Source: a bacterium
Lineage (GTDB): Bacteria > Ratteibacteria > UBA8468 > B48-G9 > DSTR01
Length of the DNA stretch: 64,000 nucleotides
Direction of reading: 5' to 3'
Assembly: GCA_029551285.1 (NCBI GenBank)
Contig: JAKPFT010000062.1
Coordinates: 18,017-82,016 of the forward strand
Made by a program: the position numbers and the translations under genes. Shown one piece after another: positions 38,076 to 43,774 of the stretch. Numbering within the stretch: position 1 is the stretch's first letter; every line of letters begins with the position of its first letter. The notes beneath the pieces were generated by a model. The model saw only the letters and a list, made by a program, of their open reading frames with translations. It had not been told where the DNA came from and ran no database searches.

Positions 38076-39428
38076 ATGGAACGGAAAGAAAAAAAGAAGG
38101 TTTTTATCCGGACCTTTGGCTGTCAGATGAACGACGTCGATTCCGAAAGGTTGCTGGCCAGGCTGGAAAAGGCTGGTTTCCTGCCGGCAGAGAGACCGGA
38201 AAACGCTGATATTCTCATTGTTAACACCTGCAGCGTTCGGGCGCATGCGGAACAGCGTGGTCTGGGATATCTCTGTTCTTTAAAGCACCTTAAGAATTCG
38301 GGGAGAATCTTCTGTTTAATCGGCTGTACGGCCAGTCTCTACGGCCAGGAACTTGTGGAAAAATATCCCTTTATTGACCTTGTCTGCAGCCCGGGAAGAC
38401 TCCCGGAGTTTCCTGACCTGCTGGCGCAGGCGGAAAAAGGTAGCCGGGTCGTGGCCACTGGAGAAGGCGGCTGGCCTTTTCTCCAGGACCTTCCCCAGTT
38501 ATCTGACCAGGTCACGGCTTCTCTTTATGTCACCAGGGGATGCAGCAATTTCTGCAGTTACTGTGTGGTGCCTTTCACCCGGGGAAGACTTGTCAGCCGG
38601 CCGAAGAAAGAAATAGTAGATGAAGTTAAACACCTGACGGAGCAAGGAGTCAGAGAAATAACCCTCCTGGGTCAGAATGTAAATCAGTATGGTGCTGACC
38701 TGCCTGACGGGCACAGTTTTGTTAAACTTCTCTGTGAGGTTCACGAAATTTCTGGTGTTAGCCGACTGCGCTTTCTTACCTCACACCCCAAGGATGTACC
38801 GCGAGAACTTCTGCTGGCCTTTCGGGACCTGCCTAAACTGTACCGGCACTTCCACCTGCCGGTGCAGGCTGGTTCCAGCAAGATTCTGAAGGCGATGGGC
38901 CGCGGCTACGATGCCAGCGATTACCTGAGATTGATTGATGCCGTTCGCTCCCTGGTTCCTGAGGTCACAATCACATCTGACGTGATGGTTGGTTTTCCGC
39001 TGGAAGAGGAAGAAGATTTTGAGCAGACCCTGACGCTGGTGGAAAGGGTCAGGTTTCATGACCTTTTTGTTTTCAAATACTCACCCCGGCCCGGTACGGC
39101 TGCGGCCAGATGGGGAGACCCTGTTTCTCCGGAAGTTAAAGCGAGGCGACATCGTGTTATCCTTGAGCTTCAACAGTCCATTTCCAGGCAGTATCTGGAA
39201 AAACTCGTGGGCCGACAGGAACTGGTACTGGTGATCAGGAGTAGCCGCAGAAACCGCTATCTTCTGGGAAGGACCACAACTGACCTGGCTGTTCTTTTTC
39301 CCGGCCAGAGGGACCTCACGGGAAAAGTTACCCCGGTGGAGATTGTGGCGGCTAAGCCGAATCTCCTCCTGGGAAGCTGTTCTGCCGGCGAGTTGACCCC
39401 TGACGTTTTTTCTTCAGCATCCGCATAA
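38076..39428 (+). CDS. miaB: tRNA-2-methylthio-N6-dimethylallyladenosine synthase
   Basis: MiaB is a radical SAM methylthiotransferase acting on i6A37 of tRNAs that read UNN codons. The 450-residue protein has the N-terminal UPF0004 domain (FIRTFGCQMNDVDSERL, with further Cys in IVNTCSVR and LIGCTA) holding one [4Fe-4S] cluster. The radical SAM triad is in RGCSNFCSYCVVPFTRG, and a C-terminal TRAM RNA-binding domain ends the protein. MiaB fits better than RimO or MtaB by the FGCQMN start and VVPFTRGR, but assignment by eye is not absolute. Its 3' end overlaps the convergent OB-like gene by 77 bp. Confidence 0.92.
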   Translation: MERKEKKKVFIRTFGCQMNDVDSERLLARLEKAGFLPAERPENADILIVNTCSVRAHAEQRGLGYLCSLKHLKNSGRIFCLIGCTASLYGQELVEKYPFIDLVCSPGRLPEFPDLLAQAEKGSRVVATGEGGWPFLQDLPQLSDQVTASLYVTRGCSNFCSYCVVPFTRGRLVSRPKKEIVDEVKHLTEQGVREITLLGQNVNQYGADLPDGHSFVKLLCEVHEISGVSRLRFLTSHPKDVPRELLLAFRDLPKLYRHFHLPVQAGSSKILKAMGRGYDASDYLRLIDAVRSLVPEVTITSDVMVGFPLEEEEDFEQTLTLVERVRFHDLFVFKYSPRPGTAAARWGDPVSPEVKARRHRVILELQQSISRQYLEKLVGRQELVLVIRSSRRNRYLLGRTTTDLAVLFPGQRDLTGKVTPVEIVAAKPNLLLGSCSAGELTPDVFSSASA

Positions 39429-39912
39429 GAAGAACGGAGCACAACCCGATAGTTCCGAAGAGTACAATTGCGATCAGTTCCTCTCTAAAAAAGTATTCCT
39501 TTTCCTCATAACCCGGTAAGACAACCTTCATGGAAATGACATGAAGATCAGGGCCAGTCCCATGCAGGGGGCAGTGCTGGAAAAAGGTACCCTGAACCTC
39601 AACAATGTCGCCACGCACCTGATACCGGCCTAACTGGCCGATCCGGGGCATCATCTCCCTGGGGAACCAGAGACCAAGGCAGTTTGGACCTTCCAGAAGG
39701 TTAACCCAGAAACCTTCTGGTGCCCGGATGAGGTCACCAATGAGTTCCCCCTGAAGTGTCACCACCTGGCCATGGTAGGTGTTTGCATTTGTCAGTAACT
39801 CTCTTAGAGACAGAGACCGGTTATTCTGGGAGAAATGCTCGGCCAGTGAGACCGAAACAAAAGCGGCCAGGGCGATAAAGATAGTTAGAAGGAAACTGAA
39901 ATTTCTTTTCAT
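39352..39912 (-). CDS. Exported/anchored OB-fold-like protein of unknown function
   Basis: A 186-residue protein with an N-terminal signal or membrane segment (FSFLLTIFIALAAFVSVSLA) and a second hydrophobic helix near residues 145-165 (ELIAIVLFGTIGLCSVLLM) followed by a basic tail. The domain between looks like an OB-fold (YHGQVVTLQGELIGDL ... GFWVNLLEGPNCLGLWFP ... RYQVRGDIVEVQGTF). I do not know the family. The ATG at 39912 gives an ATGA overlap with trkH, so it is the last gene of the long minus-strand array. Its 3' 77 bp lie antisense to miaB. Confidence 0.7.
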   Translation of the reverse strand: MKRNFSFLLTIFIALAAFVSVSLAEHFSQNNRSLSLRELLTNANTYHGQVVTLQGELIGDLIRAPEGFWVNLLEGPNCLGLWFPREMMPRIGQLGRYQVRGDIVEVQGTFFQHCPLHGTGPDLHVISMKVVLPGYEEKEYFFREELIAIVLFGTIGLCSVLLMRMLKKKRQGSTRRQNSFPGGDSA

Positions 39913-41405
39913 TCTCTTCCTGCGGTCAGCAAAAAGCGGCCGAGGATAAAGATGGGGATGAACTCCAGACGGCCACACCACATTTGAAAGATGTACCAGA
40001 TTTTAAGCAGCACCGGCATGTTACTGCTGGTCAGTCCTGCAGAAAGCCCGACATTAGCAGAAGCCGAAACCGATTCAAACAGACTGGGCACAAAGTCGTA
40101 GCCAAACAGCGTTCCCAGCAGGGCGCCAGAGAGGTAAAGTGCCAGATAACACACAGCCATGGTCAGGGCTACCCGCATCTGACGGTCGTCCACCGGTAGA
40201 TTCCTCTGGTGATGAAACCTTTCCTGAATGCTGGCTCCTTCTGGATAGGCGAATCTTCTTACTTCCTGCCGCACACTCTTGAAGAACAGGCCAGTCCGGA
40301 GAGCCTTAATGCCGCCGGAAGTGGAATTGGTACACCCACCCAGACCCATGGCAAAAATTATTCCCATAAGCGTCAGCTGACTCCATCCAGCCAGTTCCGT
40401 GACCGTTATGTTGGAAAACCCCACGCCGGTATGTCCGGAAACCAACTGGTAAAAGGTAGAACGGAAAAAAGACCAGAGGCCCGGATAACGCGAAACAGAA
40501 TGTCCAAATCCTGCCAATGCCAGCACATAAGTAACAACGATGCTGCCAAGTAAGACTTTGAGTTCGTAGTTTTCCTTCAACTCCCGGAAGTGGCCTGTCC
40601 AGATAGAGTAATGAACAGTGAAGGAAATGGCGCCCAGAAGGAAAAAGATAATGGTGAGCATTTCAAAGGCAGCATTATGATAGTAAAGGATATTGAGAGA
40701 CTGAGGGGCGAAACCAGCGGTGTCCCAGCCGGCCATGAAGATGCAGATGCCGTGGAAAAGGGCCCGGGGAAGGTTTACTCCGGACAGAACCAGGCATCCG
40801 GACAGAAGGCCTGAGCCTAAAACAAGATAAAAGCAGCTCACCAGCCAGATAAAATAAGCGGTGGTCCGCACATTCGGCAAAATGCGGGCATCGCGGGCTT
40901 CTCCGACATATACTCTGAAGGCTCCGGAACCTCTGAAAAGAAAAATAACTGCGACCAGAATGATGCCCTGTCCACCAATAAAGCACATGAAGTGACGCCA
41001 GAAGTTATGAGCGGTGGAAAGGTGGTCAAGGTCCTGGACCAGAACCAGTCCTGTGGTCGCATAGGCACTCATACATTCAAAGCAGGCGTCAAGGTAGGAA
41101 AGGAAGTGACCGCTAAGATAGAGCGGAAGAGCCGAAAGAAACATCGCCACCAGCCAGGTAAGGGCGACCAAGACCATACCCTGACGCCAGTTAATTTCTT
41201 CTACCGGAGGAAATAAGGTGGAAAGAATAGCGCCTAAAATTAGGGAGAGCTCCACAGAAAGAAGAAAATCAGGTACGGCTGCCCATTCCTGCAGAACGAT
41301 GGCCAGCAGTAAAGGTAATCCCTGAAGGAAACCAAGCAGAAAGACCATTCGGCCCAGATAATAACCGACCGTGCTGATGTCTTCCCGGCTGAAATTCGGA
41401 ATCAT
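39909..41405 (-). CDS. trkH: Potassium uptake channel subunit (TrkH/KtrB family)
   Basis: A 498-residue integral membrane protein with the four-repeat M1-P-M2 layout of Trk/Ktr transporters. Selectivity-filter-like loops are seen as MSAYATTGLV, GWDTAGFAPQSL, SGHTGVGFSNI and SASANVGLSAGL; the conserved filter glycines are present in each. GLGGCTNSTSGGIKALR is the typical cytoplasmic segment near the third repeat. It imports K+ together with the TrkA-type RCK proteins upstream. ATGA overlaps join it to a 48-aa microprotein before and an OB-like gene after. Confidence 0.93.
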   Translation of the reverse strand: MIPNFSREDISTVGYYLGRMVFLLGFLQGLPLLLAIVLQEWAAVPDFLLSVELSLILGAILSTLFPPVEEINWRQGMVLVALTWLVAMFLSALPLYLSGHFLSYLDACFECMSAYATTGLVLVQDLDHLSTAHNFWRHFMCFIGGQGIILVAVIFLFRGSGAFRVYVGEARDARILPNVRTTAYFIWLVSCFYLVLGSGLLSGCLVLSGVNLPRALFHGICIFMAGWDTAGFAPQSLNILYYHNAAFEMLTIIFFLLGAISFTVHYSIWTGHFRELKENYELKVLLGSIVVTYVLALAGFGHSVSRYPGLWSFFRSTFYQLVSGHTGVGFSNITVTELAGWSQLTLMGIIFAMGLGGCTNSTSGGIKALRTGLFFKSVRQEVRRFAYPEGASIQERFHHQRNLPVDDRQMRVALTMAVCYLALYLSGALLGTLFGYDFVPSLFESVSASANVGLSAGLTSSNMPVLLKIWYIFQMWCGRLEFIPIFILGRFLLTAGRE

Positions 41406-41548
41406 GTAACCAGCAGGTAGAAAAAGTAAAAGACCGCGCTGATCATGAGGGCCAAAAGGCAGACCAGTAACGGGTAAATCATTTCCAGACAGATACCGGC
41501 CCAGGCCTTAAGCAAGACCATGACGTAATGCCAGAGATTTCTCTTCAT
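41402..41548 (-). CDS. 48-residue single-span membrane microprotein between trkA and trkH
   Basis: Missing from the ORF track because it is under 60 residues. I translated it codon by codon: 48 residues, beginning MKRNLWHYVMVLLKAWAG and ending AVFYFFYLLVT, with a long hydrophobic stretch over about residues 24-48 and a basic, aromatic N-terminus. Its ATG overlaps the trkA stop (ATGA) and its TGA overlaps the trkH ATG (ATGA), so it is tiled perfectly into the operon. It may be a small accessory subunit of the K+ transporter, as KdpF is for Kdp; that is inference. Confidence 0.75.
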   Translation of the reverse strand: MKRNLWHYVMVLLKAWAGICLEMIYPLLVCLLALMISAVFYFFYLLVT

Positions 41549-42207
41549 GTTGTCTCGCCAATGAAGGCGTGAAGAAGTTCTTTTTCGTTTTCTACCTTGG
41601 TCAGGGCAATAACCTCATCTCCTGCCTGAAAGGCAAGCTCGCCTCTGGGAATGATAAACTCATCTCCCCTCAGGATCGCTACCAGAACTGTATCCTCGGG
41701 AAGCCTTATGGCCTTGAGTGGCTGATGCAAAACCGGTGAGCCCTCGGGCAGGTCAACCCGAACCAGAGAAAGTTTTCCCCGCTTGAAGGCGCAAAGATTA
41801 ATCATGTCCTCAAGGGAGACTTCTTCTTCAATAATTTTGGCAATAATTGCGGTGCTATCCACGGCAATATCAACACCTAACTGGAAGAAAATTTTTTCGT
41901 GGCGGGGGTCATTGATGCGGGCCACGGTGCGGCGTACCTTGAAAACGTCTTTCGCCAGTTGACAGATAATCAGGTTGTCCTCATCTTTTCCGGTTACCGC
42001 GGCGATGACATCGGCCGTTTTTATTCCGGCTTGCATCAATGTGTCGACCTGGCAGCCGTCACCCTCAATGATGAGTATTCGGGGATTACCGGCCAGTATT
42101 TCCACCCGTCGAGGATTTTTCTCAATCAGGGTGACGTAGTTATTTTCAGCCAGACGTTCAGCCAGAAAGGCTCCAACCTGTCCACCACCAACAATAATTA
42201 TTTTCAT
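41545..42207 (-). CDS. trkA: Trk/Ktr potassium uptake regulatory subunit TrkA (second copy in operon)
   Basis: A 220-residue RCK protein. The Rossmann domain begins MKIIIVGGGQVGAFLAERL and carries EGDGCQVDTLMQAGI, with the NAD(H)/ATP-binding acidic residue region VTLIEKN. The C-terminal ~80 residues are the TrkA-C/RCK-C domain (VLVAILRGDEFIIPRGELAFQAGDEVIAL). It forms the cytoplasmic gating ring of TrkH. It overlaps the first trkA gene by ATGA; two half-size TrkA proteins here replace the single double-length TrkA of E. coli. Confidence 0.92.
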   Translation of the reverse strand: MKIIIVGGGQVGAFLAERLAENNYVTLIEKNPRRVEILAGNPRILIIEGDGCQVDTLMQAGIKTADVIAAVTGKDEDNLIICQLAKDVFKVRRTVARINDPRHEKIFFQLGVDIAVDSTAIIAKIIEEEVSLEDMINLCAFKRGKLSLVRVDLPEGSPVLHQPLKAIRLPEDTVLVAILRGDEFIIPRGELAFQAGDEVIALTKVENEKELLHAFIGETT

Positions 42208-42848
42208 GTAATCCCCAGAATCTTCCGCACGTGTTTTAATTGAGCAATTTTGACGACGCCAATCAGGCGGTCACCATCGTGAACGACCAGGTTTGCTTCG
42301 GGAAGTAATGGTTCGCCGTGGCGCACGACCAGTGCAACGTAAAACTGATCCGGCAGGTTAAAGGTACTGACCGGACGACCAGCCTTTTCCTTGCTGACGA
42401 TTACCTCCAGCATGCTCACCTGACTGGACTCCAAAATATAGGTGGAGAAATGGCCTTCAATCAACTTATCTCTGATCACTTCCGCTACCAGATAAGAGCC
42501 GTTAATAATTTCATACCCAAGGCCACGGTAAACTTCAGCCTTCACCGGATCAGTCACCCGCACCACCACTTTGGGAACATGAAAGATTCGCCTGGCCACC
42601 TGTCCGATTACCAGGTTCACATTATCATCACTACTTACGGCCGCCAGCGCATCACAACGTTCAATTCCAGCCTCGCGAAGAACATCCAGGTCCATTCCGC
42701 TTCCGGTGATGGTCAGGCCGTTAAAAACAGGTTTGAGGCTCTCAAAACTCTGGCTGTTACGGTCAATGATGGCTACATTATGCTCCTCGGAAAGAATCCT
42801 GGCCAGGTGAGCACCTACCTTGCCACAGCCGACCACGATAAAGTACAT
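42204..42848 (-). CDS. trkA: Trk/Ktr potassium uptake regulatory subunit TrkA (first copy in operon)
   Basis: A 214-residue RCK protein, paralogous to its neighbour: MYFIVVGCGKVGAHLARIL at the start, ITGSGMDLDVLREAGIERCDALAAVSSDDNVNLV in the middle, and a TrkA-C domain (YVALVVRHGEPLLPEANLVVHDGDRLIGV) at the end. The two copies probably form a mixed gating ring. It lies 14 bp after thrB, so the K+ genes appear to belong to the same transcription unit as the trp and thr genes. Confidence 0.92.
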   Translation of the reverse strand: MYFIVVGCGKVGAHLARILSEEHNVAIIDRNSQSFESLKPVFNGLTITGSGMDLDVLREAGIERCDALAAVSSDDNVNLVIGQVARRIFHVPKVVVRVTDPVKAEVYRGLGYEIINGSYLVAEVIRDKLIEGHFSTYILESSQVSMLEVIVSKEKAGRPVSTFNLPDQFYVALVVRHGEPLLPEANLVVHDGDRLIGVVKIAQLKHVRKILGIT

Positions 42849-42862
42849 TGTTCGCCGCCTGG

Positions 42863-43774
42863 TTAAATTTGTCCGGAGATTTTACGATTACAATGCCAGG
42901 TGGTTTTGCCGCCCAGGGCGACCACTTTCACCTGGCCAGTCCACCTTTTCTCAAGAAGCAACTTCCGCCAGTTCTTCTCCACCTTGCGGGTACCCTGGCA
43001 GCAGATGGCAGCCACTGAAGGACCGGCCCCGCTTAAACAACACCCGCTGGCTCCACTGGCCAGGGCTGTCCGGCAAAGTGGCACCAGATGAGGATATAAC
43101 TTCGCCCGGTACGGCTGGTGCAGGGCATCCTCCATGCCTGTTTTCAAATAGTACCCTTTTTGCTCCAGAAAAGCAAGGGTTAAAAAGGCGCACCGGCTGA
43201 TATTGAAAGTGGCTTGCTGGCGGTCAATTTTCCCGGGCAGAATCTGTCTGGCCTGCCGGGTTGGGTAGCCTTTTTCCGGCAGGAAGATGACAGCCTTCCA
43301 GCCAGCCGGGACAGGAATACTGCGGTAAAGAAGCCGGTCACTGGCAGCCACCAGGACAAAACCACCCAGTAAACTGGCGGCAACATTGTCAGGGTGCTTC
43401 TCCATTCTCAGACAGCAGGAAAGAACCTCCTCAGTATCCACCGGTCGGCCAGCAAGGAGAAAGGCAGCCAGTACACCAGCGACAACGGCGCTTCCGCTAC
43501 CGCCCAGACCGGCCCCTGGAGGAATTCTGTTTGTTATCACCAGACGGAGGGGCAACACCGGCTGCTGGAGAATTTTGCGCGTCTGGGCATAAGCCTGCCA
43601 GACAAGATTGCTCTTGTCTCCGGGCAGTCGGGGGTCGTCAACCCTGATGGAAAGTTGTCTGGCTGTCCTGACCCGATAGGTAGAAAAAAGTCTTAAACTG
43701 ACAGCCGCACAGTCAAAACCACTGCCGAGGTTGCCAATACTGGCCGGAACAGAAATTATGAATTCAGATTCCAT
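42863..43774 (-). CDS. thrB: Homoserine kinase
   Basis: ThrB phosphorylates homoserine on the way to threonine. The 303-residue GHMP kinase has the N-terminal PASIGNLGSGFDCAAVSL, the ATP loop RIPPGAGLGGSGSAVVAGV and the C-terminal GASGCCLSGAGPSVAAIC. The length is standard. It follows hom by 18 bp. Threonine synthase (thrC) is not in the window. Confidence 0.94.
   Translation of the reverse strand: MESEFIISVPASIGNLGSGFDCAAVSLRLFSTYRVRTARQLSIRVDDPRLPGDKSNLVWQAYAQTRKILQQPVLPLRLVITNRIPPGAGLGGSGSAVVAGVLAAFLLAGRPVDTEEVLSCCLRMEKHPDNVAASLLGGFVLVAASDRLLYRSIPVPAGWKAVIFLPEKGYPTRQARQILPGKIDRQQATFNISRCAFLTLAFLEQKGYYLKTGMEDALHQPYRAKLYPHLVPLCRTALASGASGCCLSGAGPSVAAICCQGTRKVEKNWRKLLLEKRWTGQVKVVALGGKTTWHCNRKISGQI

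Follow-up and report, generated by a model that had tools for sequence, protein, structure and literature searches.

Identification of a microprotein gene in a K+-uptake operon

The short open reading frame (ORF) lying between trkA and trkH in the window (the whole stretch of 64,000 nucleotides analysed here, part of a 2.7-Mb draft genome) is, to judge from sequence comparison, a real gene under strong purifying selection, and we consider it likely that its product truly serves a TrkH-type K+ channel as a subunit spanning the membrane once. Our results suggest that this TrkH-type K+ importer has undescribed subunits.

The preliminary description of this DNA held that the ORF exactly fills the gap between trkA and trkH with ATGA overlaps at both ends, and we verified both the coordinates and the overlaps on the minus strand (Table 1). 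The tiling is in fact wider than was claimed, as trkA1 and trkA2, and likewise trkH and the gene following it (called here the OB gene, for the putative OB-type domain of its product), are also joined by 4-nt overlaps, the five genes being arranged in the order trkA1, trkA2, microprotein gene, trkH and OB gene. The microprotein encoded in the window, MKRNLWHYVMVLLKAWAGICLEMIYPLLVCLLALMISAVFYFFYLLVT, presents a basic N-terminus and one hydrophobic helix including the residues G18-I19-x-x-E22. The TrkH of the window matches Pfam PF02386 (E = 2e-39) and TrkH in the PDB (E = 2e-28), and scores 222 bits against TIGR00933, under the curated cut-off of 331 for that model. Both trkA products are encoded by separate genes and match TrkA_N and TrkA_C above the Pfam gathering cut-offs.

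Table 1. Genes and junctions of the K+-uptake operon, in coordinates of the window
Feature	Coordinates	Strand	Product or junction	Basis
trkA1	42204..42848	minus	214 aa; TrkA_N + TrkA_C	PF02254, PF02080
trkA1/trkA2 overlap	42204..42207	minus	4 nt	sequence
trkA2	41545..42207	minus	220 aa; TrkA_N + TrkA_C	PF02254, PF02080
trkA2/microprotein gene overlap	41545..41548	minus	ATGA; trkA2 stop, microprotein start	sequence
Microprotein gene	41402..41548	minus	48 aa; coordinates with stop	ORF, conservation in place, dN/dS, columns of 97 homologues
Microprotein gene/trkH overlap	41402..41405	minus	ATGA; microprotein stop (TGA), trkH start (ATG)	sequence
trkH	39909..41405	minus	498 aa; SKT-family K+ channel/transporter	Pfam, PDB, fold match
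trkH/OB gene overlap	39909..39912	minus	ATGA; trkH stop, OB-gene start	sequence
OB gene	39352..39912	minus	186 aa from ATG at 39912	conserved beside clade trkH, alignment, AlphaFold, Foldseek

Upstream of these genes, thrB (homoserine kinase, 42863-43774, minus strand) ends 14 nt ahead of trkA1, and the K+ genes may thus share transcription with the upstream amino-acid biosynthesis genes. A MiaB-like radical-SAM/UPF0004/TRAM gene (38076-39428, plus strand) runs towards the OB gene and overlaps its 3' end, and the class loci examined likewise have a convergent gene of this type after trkH and the OB gene.

Evidence for a protein-coding gene

Shuffling the segment with its dinucleotides preserved left the frame open in 14% of the shuffles, and open and as hydrophobic as the real one in 0.065%; the open frame alone is consequently weak evidence, while its hydrophobicity is stronger. 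Conservation was decisive. An ORF of 44-56 aa occupies the same slot in every relative of the class with DNA upstream of trkH, and a profile search recovered the microprotein in 30 of the 35 class genomes, the other five consisting of four without a match to this TrkH and one (G020) in which the contig breaks off 41 nt ahead of trkH. Values of dN/dS estimated in frame by the method of Nei and Gojobori ranged between 0.05 and 0.32 for 12 of the 15 pairs (synonymous sites were saturated in the other three), most changes fell at third codon positions of the ORF, and the two other forward frames gave no such low dN/dS signal. These two comparisons had been proposed in the preliminary description, and both favoured a gene; relatives that keep the gap and have lost the frame or the helix were also looked for, and none was found.

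The ORF being conserved in place with an in-frame dN/dS well below 1, we conclude that it is real. That it arose by chance, or that it is a conserved DNA element and not a protein, draws some support from the 14% of shuffles in which a frame of such length is open, but the probability of this explanation is negligible when set against the dN/dS values, the excess of third-position changes in this frame only and the homologues found in four phylum-level lineages; the conservation and dN/dS together rule out a chance ORF.

Distribution and sequence of the microprotein family

TrkH profile searches covered 386 genomes and then 237 genomes belonging to the phylum that includes G318 or to the small phyla represented by G071 and G120; the profile was built from the class, and distant TrkHs with other small partners may escape its detection. 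About 69 trkH loci were inspected in the phylum of G318, with the downstream DNA covered for part of them. The microprotein was found before TrkH in three phylum-level lineages beyond that of the window, which makes at least four, where phylum-level refers to the grouping of the genome collection used. Its length ranges from 28 to 75 aa, with uncertain start codons in the longer variants, being 35-50 aa in most members and 28 aa in some (for example, MKVILGVLTEIFFCLSVIGVAFLLSFIF). The reading frame, the basic N-terminus and the hydrophobic helix previously described in the window persist throughout the class and in the three other lineages, each microprotein having one hydrophobic stretch and the N-terminal side being the more positive in 82 of 97 homologues.

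The family is characterised by the signature G-I-x-x-E, in which Gly is present in 97 of the 97 homologues and Glu, four positions later, in 95. When similar sequences among these homologues were down-weighted, Ile was the next residue after Gly in 86%, the +7 position often held Tyr or Phe, and small residues dominated at +8 (84%), +15 (80%) and +19 (84%), the helical periodicity of these small residues not being significant. The microprotein had no sequence match in Pfam or the PDB, and for the proteins tested NCBIfam gave no convincing match.

Examination of the loci apparently lacking the gene showed that in six of them (L174-L177, L181 and L204) the absence was an artefact of the length filter, 28-aa forms being present there, and that L202 carries a divergent form without the Gly. 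The gene is truly absent from G495 and G513, in which 11-14 nt separate the end of trkA from trkH, and from the second trkH copy in G446. As G495 and G513 have a trkH of the clade described below together with trkA, the microprotein is not strictly essential. Weak profile matches (E about 0.001-0.01) in the unrelated genomes G044, G110, G115, G174, G331, G343, G138, G341 and G317 were discarded, none of them being adjacent to a listed TrkH match.

Co-inheritance with one TrkH clade

We built a tree of 136 TrkH proteins, in which the 95 accompanied by the microprotein all fall in one group of 101, whose support is 0.63 and whose exact edge is soft. The six TrkHs of this clade without it comprise two that are truncated or at a contig end (L012, L028), the divergent case L202, the second copy L203, and L170 and L171 from G495 and G513. 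The microprotein is absent from all 35 TrkH loci outside the clade, where the end of trkA is usually near trkH; a motif match at one of these loci (L107) belonged to the terminal part of a far longer ORF. At three loci, belonging to the two trkH copies of G583 and to G478, the microprotein gene directly precedes trkH and no trkA is adjacent; in G583 the trkA pair is found on a different contig, and G478 gave no match to this trkA. Since the microprotein is kept with trkH at these loci, TrkH rather than TrkA is probably its partner.

The trkH copies at L200 (G583), L169 (G478) and L203 (G446) are preceded by sensor-kinase-like and response-regulator-like genes and not by trkA, the kinase at L169 matching HisKA and DUF4118, which we take to be a KdpD-type domain. 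This gene order hints at K+-responsive control of those copies. At L142, one of the trkH copies of G583, a gene of the NQR2/RnfD/RnfE family lies upstream in place of trkA.

Some near-invariant residues of the clade's TrkHs, among them D228 and H325 (window numbering), which both adjoin likely filter segments, are rare or absent at the corresponding sites of other TrkHs. A crude search for candidate residues, resting on single events and to be taken as a lead only, looked at TrkH changes accompanying loss of the microprotein (L170, L171) or replacement of its Glu (L027, L029), and pointed to D9, Y241, G372; S190, L454, S455 and L480 (window numbering).

The protein encoded downstream of trkH

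The OB protein has about 150-190 aa and consists of an N-terminal hydrophobic stretch, which we read as a signal peptide, a putative OB-type domain and a C-terminal, presumably transmembrane, helix. Four invariant residues, shared by all 28 aligned members, form the pattern C-x2-H-x4-D-x-H (C114, H117, D122 and H124 when counted from the ATG at 39912). The confident AlphaFold model (mean pLDDT 91.9) has a mainly beta core, and Foldseek ranks aminoacyl-tRNA synthetases, enzymes that carry OB domains, as its closest matches (TMq 0.36-0.46). Relatives of the protein gave a weak match to Pfam tRNA_anti-codon (0.012), and no convincing sequence match to the OB protein was found in Pfam, NCBIfam or the PDB.

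The OB gene is present in 35 of the 386 genomes, and these are the genomes of the TrkH clade with the exception of G022, where the contig stops within trkH. In G120 and G260 it is located between the microprotein gene and trkH, and in G392 the microprotein is present but the following 1.7 kb contain no OB gene. By sequence searches, then, the distribution of the OB protein is nearly that of the microprotein and the TrkH clade.

Comparison with known K+-uptake systems

The closest likeness to the microprotein is KdpF (29-30 aa) of KdpFABC, also a tiny single-span peptide encoded directly before a subunit of the SKT superfamily in a K+-uptake operon, its neighbour KdpA being related in fold to TrkH. 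The microprotein is of the KdpF type in size and topology, with 28-75 aa, one hydrophobic stretch and one helix in the model. However, it precedes trkH and not kdpA, the operon has no P-type ATPase gene, its neighbours are trkA and the OB gene, and, unlike that of KdpF, its helix begins with the invariant G-I-x-x-E. We rejected homology to KdpF, as none of 56 microprotein members matched the Pfam KdpF model at E<=1, in a HMMER search whose filters remove most hits weaker than about 0.1. For KdpF, a stabilising effect on the Kdp complex in vitro has been proposed, and the peptide was reported not to be essential for Kdp function (PMC3618439). A further likeness is with AcrZ, a small single-helix protein on a different and large transporter, AcrB (PMC7267776).

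TrkAH and KtrAB, two of the principal K+ channels of bacteria and seen in published structures as a channel with its RCK ring, share with the system of the window the channel fold and the TrkA-type RCK partners. The window system differs from TrkAH in that the microprotein and the OB protein are co-encoded and TrkA is made of two half-length proteins. Published TrkH-TrkA structures comprise these two proteins only (PMC6987127).

The predicted layout of the OB protein resembles that of KdpC, which has one membrane anchor and an extracytoplasmic domain and is encoded with an SKT channel subunit, but the OB protein differs by its putative OB-type domain, its C-terminal anchor and the invariant C-x2-H-x4-D-x-H, and it had no match among PDB sequences, hence none to KdpC. 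The periplasmic domain of KdpC has been suggested to cap the KdpA pore (PMC6255902).

Proposed role of the microprotein and alternative explanations

Co-inheritance with one TrkH clade supports the view of the microprotein as a subunit of TrkH, and on this basis we infer a physical association between the two. The earlier suggestion of an undescribed small membrane subunit of Trk, comparable to KdpF, gains support from the same pattern. To our knowledge no small accessory subunit is known for this channel family, and our search of open-access literature, through titles and abstracts and with subscription papers mostly outside its reach, found neither a Trk/Ktr microprotein nor an auxiliary small subunit of TrkH.

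The AlphaFold model of a natural microprotein-TrkH read-through from L019, in which stop codons were read as residues, predicts a 42-residue helix for the microprotein with moderate confidence (pLDDT about 66-82). Foldseek matched the TrkH part to TrkH (E = 1.4e-13; that of Vibrio was among the matches) and to KtrB (E = 3.4e-10), with KdpA more distant. The positive-inside rule, applied to the charge bias noted above, indicates that the helix probably inserts with its N-terminus inside and its C-terminus outside. The face bearing the invariant Gly, the near-invariant Glu and the small residues at +8, +15 and +19 would pack against TrkH, and the Glu may place a carboxylate near the cytoplasmic leaflet, close to that end of the helix, although the statistics for a helical face are weak. 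Translation coupled through the ATGA junctions would let the microprotein be made together with TrkH. It may then lend stability to the channel or adjust its activity, much as has been proposed for KdpF on KdpA, and the OB protein could be a second, extracytoplasmic accessory part. The exact effect is the least certain step, and may concern assembly, gating or the coupling to the TrkA ring.

Other roles for the peptide must be weighed against that of a TrkH subunit. It could act as a free regulator of the TrkA ring, of the OB protein or of some further membrane protein such as a sensor kinase, without being a stable part of a TrkH complex. Small membrane peptides can regulate kinases, as has been proposed for KdpF and KdpD (PMC3618439), two loci have a kinase and a response regulator directly upstream (the kinase of L169 having the KdpD-type DUF4118 domain), and the microprotein gene sits between trkA and trkH. 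We nevertheless find such a regulator unlikely, because three loci keep the microprotein with trkH and no adjacent trkA (G478 being without a match to this trkA), the kinase is not adjacent in most loci, and G392 keeps the microprotein without the OB gene. The ATGA overlaps at both ends of the ORF in the window would also fit an ORF whose main use is to pass ribosomes on from trkA to trkH, as a translational coupler or leader, and whose peptide sequence is irrelevant. This is very improbable, as the peptide is under purifying selection with its G and E nearly invariant, many relatives have gaps instead of overlaps, and in G120 and G260 the OB gene intervenes before trkH; with the peptide itself selected, coupling is ruled out as the main role. 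Finally, the microprotein could be a piece of TrkH split into its own gene rather than an additional subunit, a view to which its position directly upstream of trkH, and in frame with it in several relatives, lends some appeal. It is an extremely improbable view, however: TrkH is full length without the microprotein (residues 17-488 align to residues 10-477 of Vibrio TrkH), which rules out a split-off helix, its start is alike where the microprotein is missing (L170, L171), and the microprotein profile has no sequence match in the PDB.

Significance

Returning to the subunit interpretation, we tentatively propose, as a possibility we hold at somewhat less than even chance, that one TrkH clade, in at least four phylum-level lineages, forms a complex larger than TrkAH. 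This complex would contain two different TrkAs, a one-helix subunit (28-50 aa) whose invariant Gly and near-invariant Glu contribute to gating, and an OB protein that is anchored in the membrane, lies outside the cytoplasm and senses or gates outside ions through its conserved C/H/D/H site, a set like KdpF and KdpC that would have arisen independently on a passive SKT channel.

The genomic case for the microprotein is solid and concerns a protein family of under 50 aa, and down to 28 aa, that was missed by the Pfam and NCBIfam models used. The microprotein would offer a clear test of the role of such a helix on a channel without an ATPase. If both proteins are indeed tied to the TrkH clade, the Trk module can carry a small and an extracytoplasmic accessory subunit, as KdpA does.
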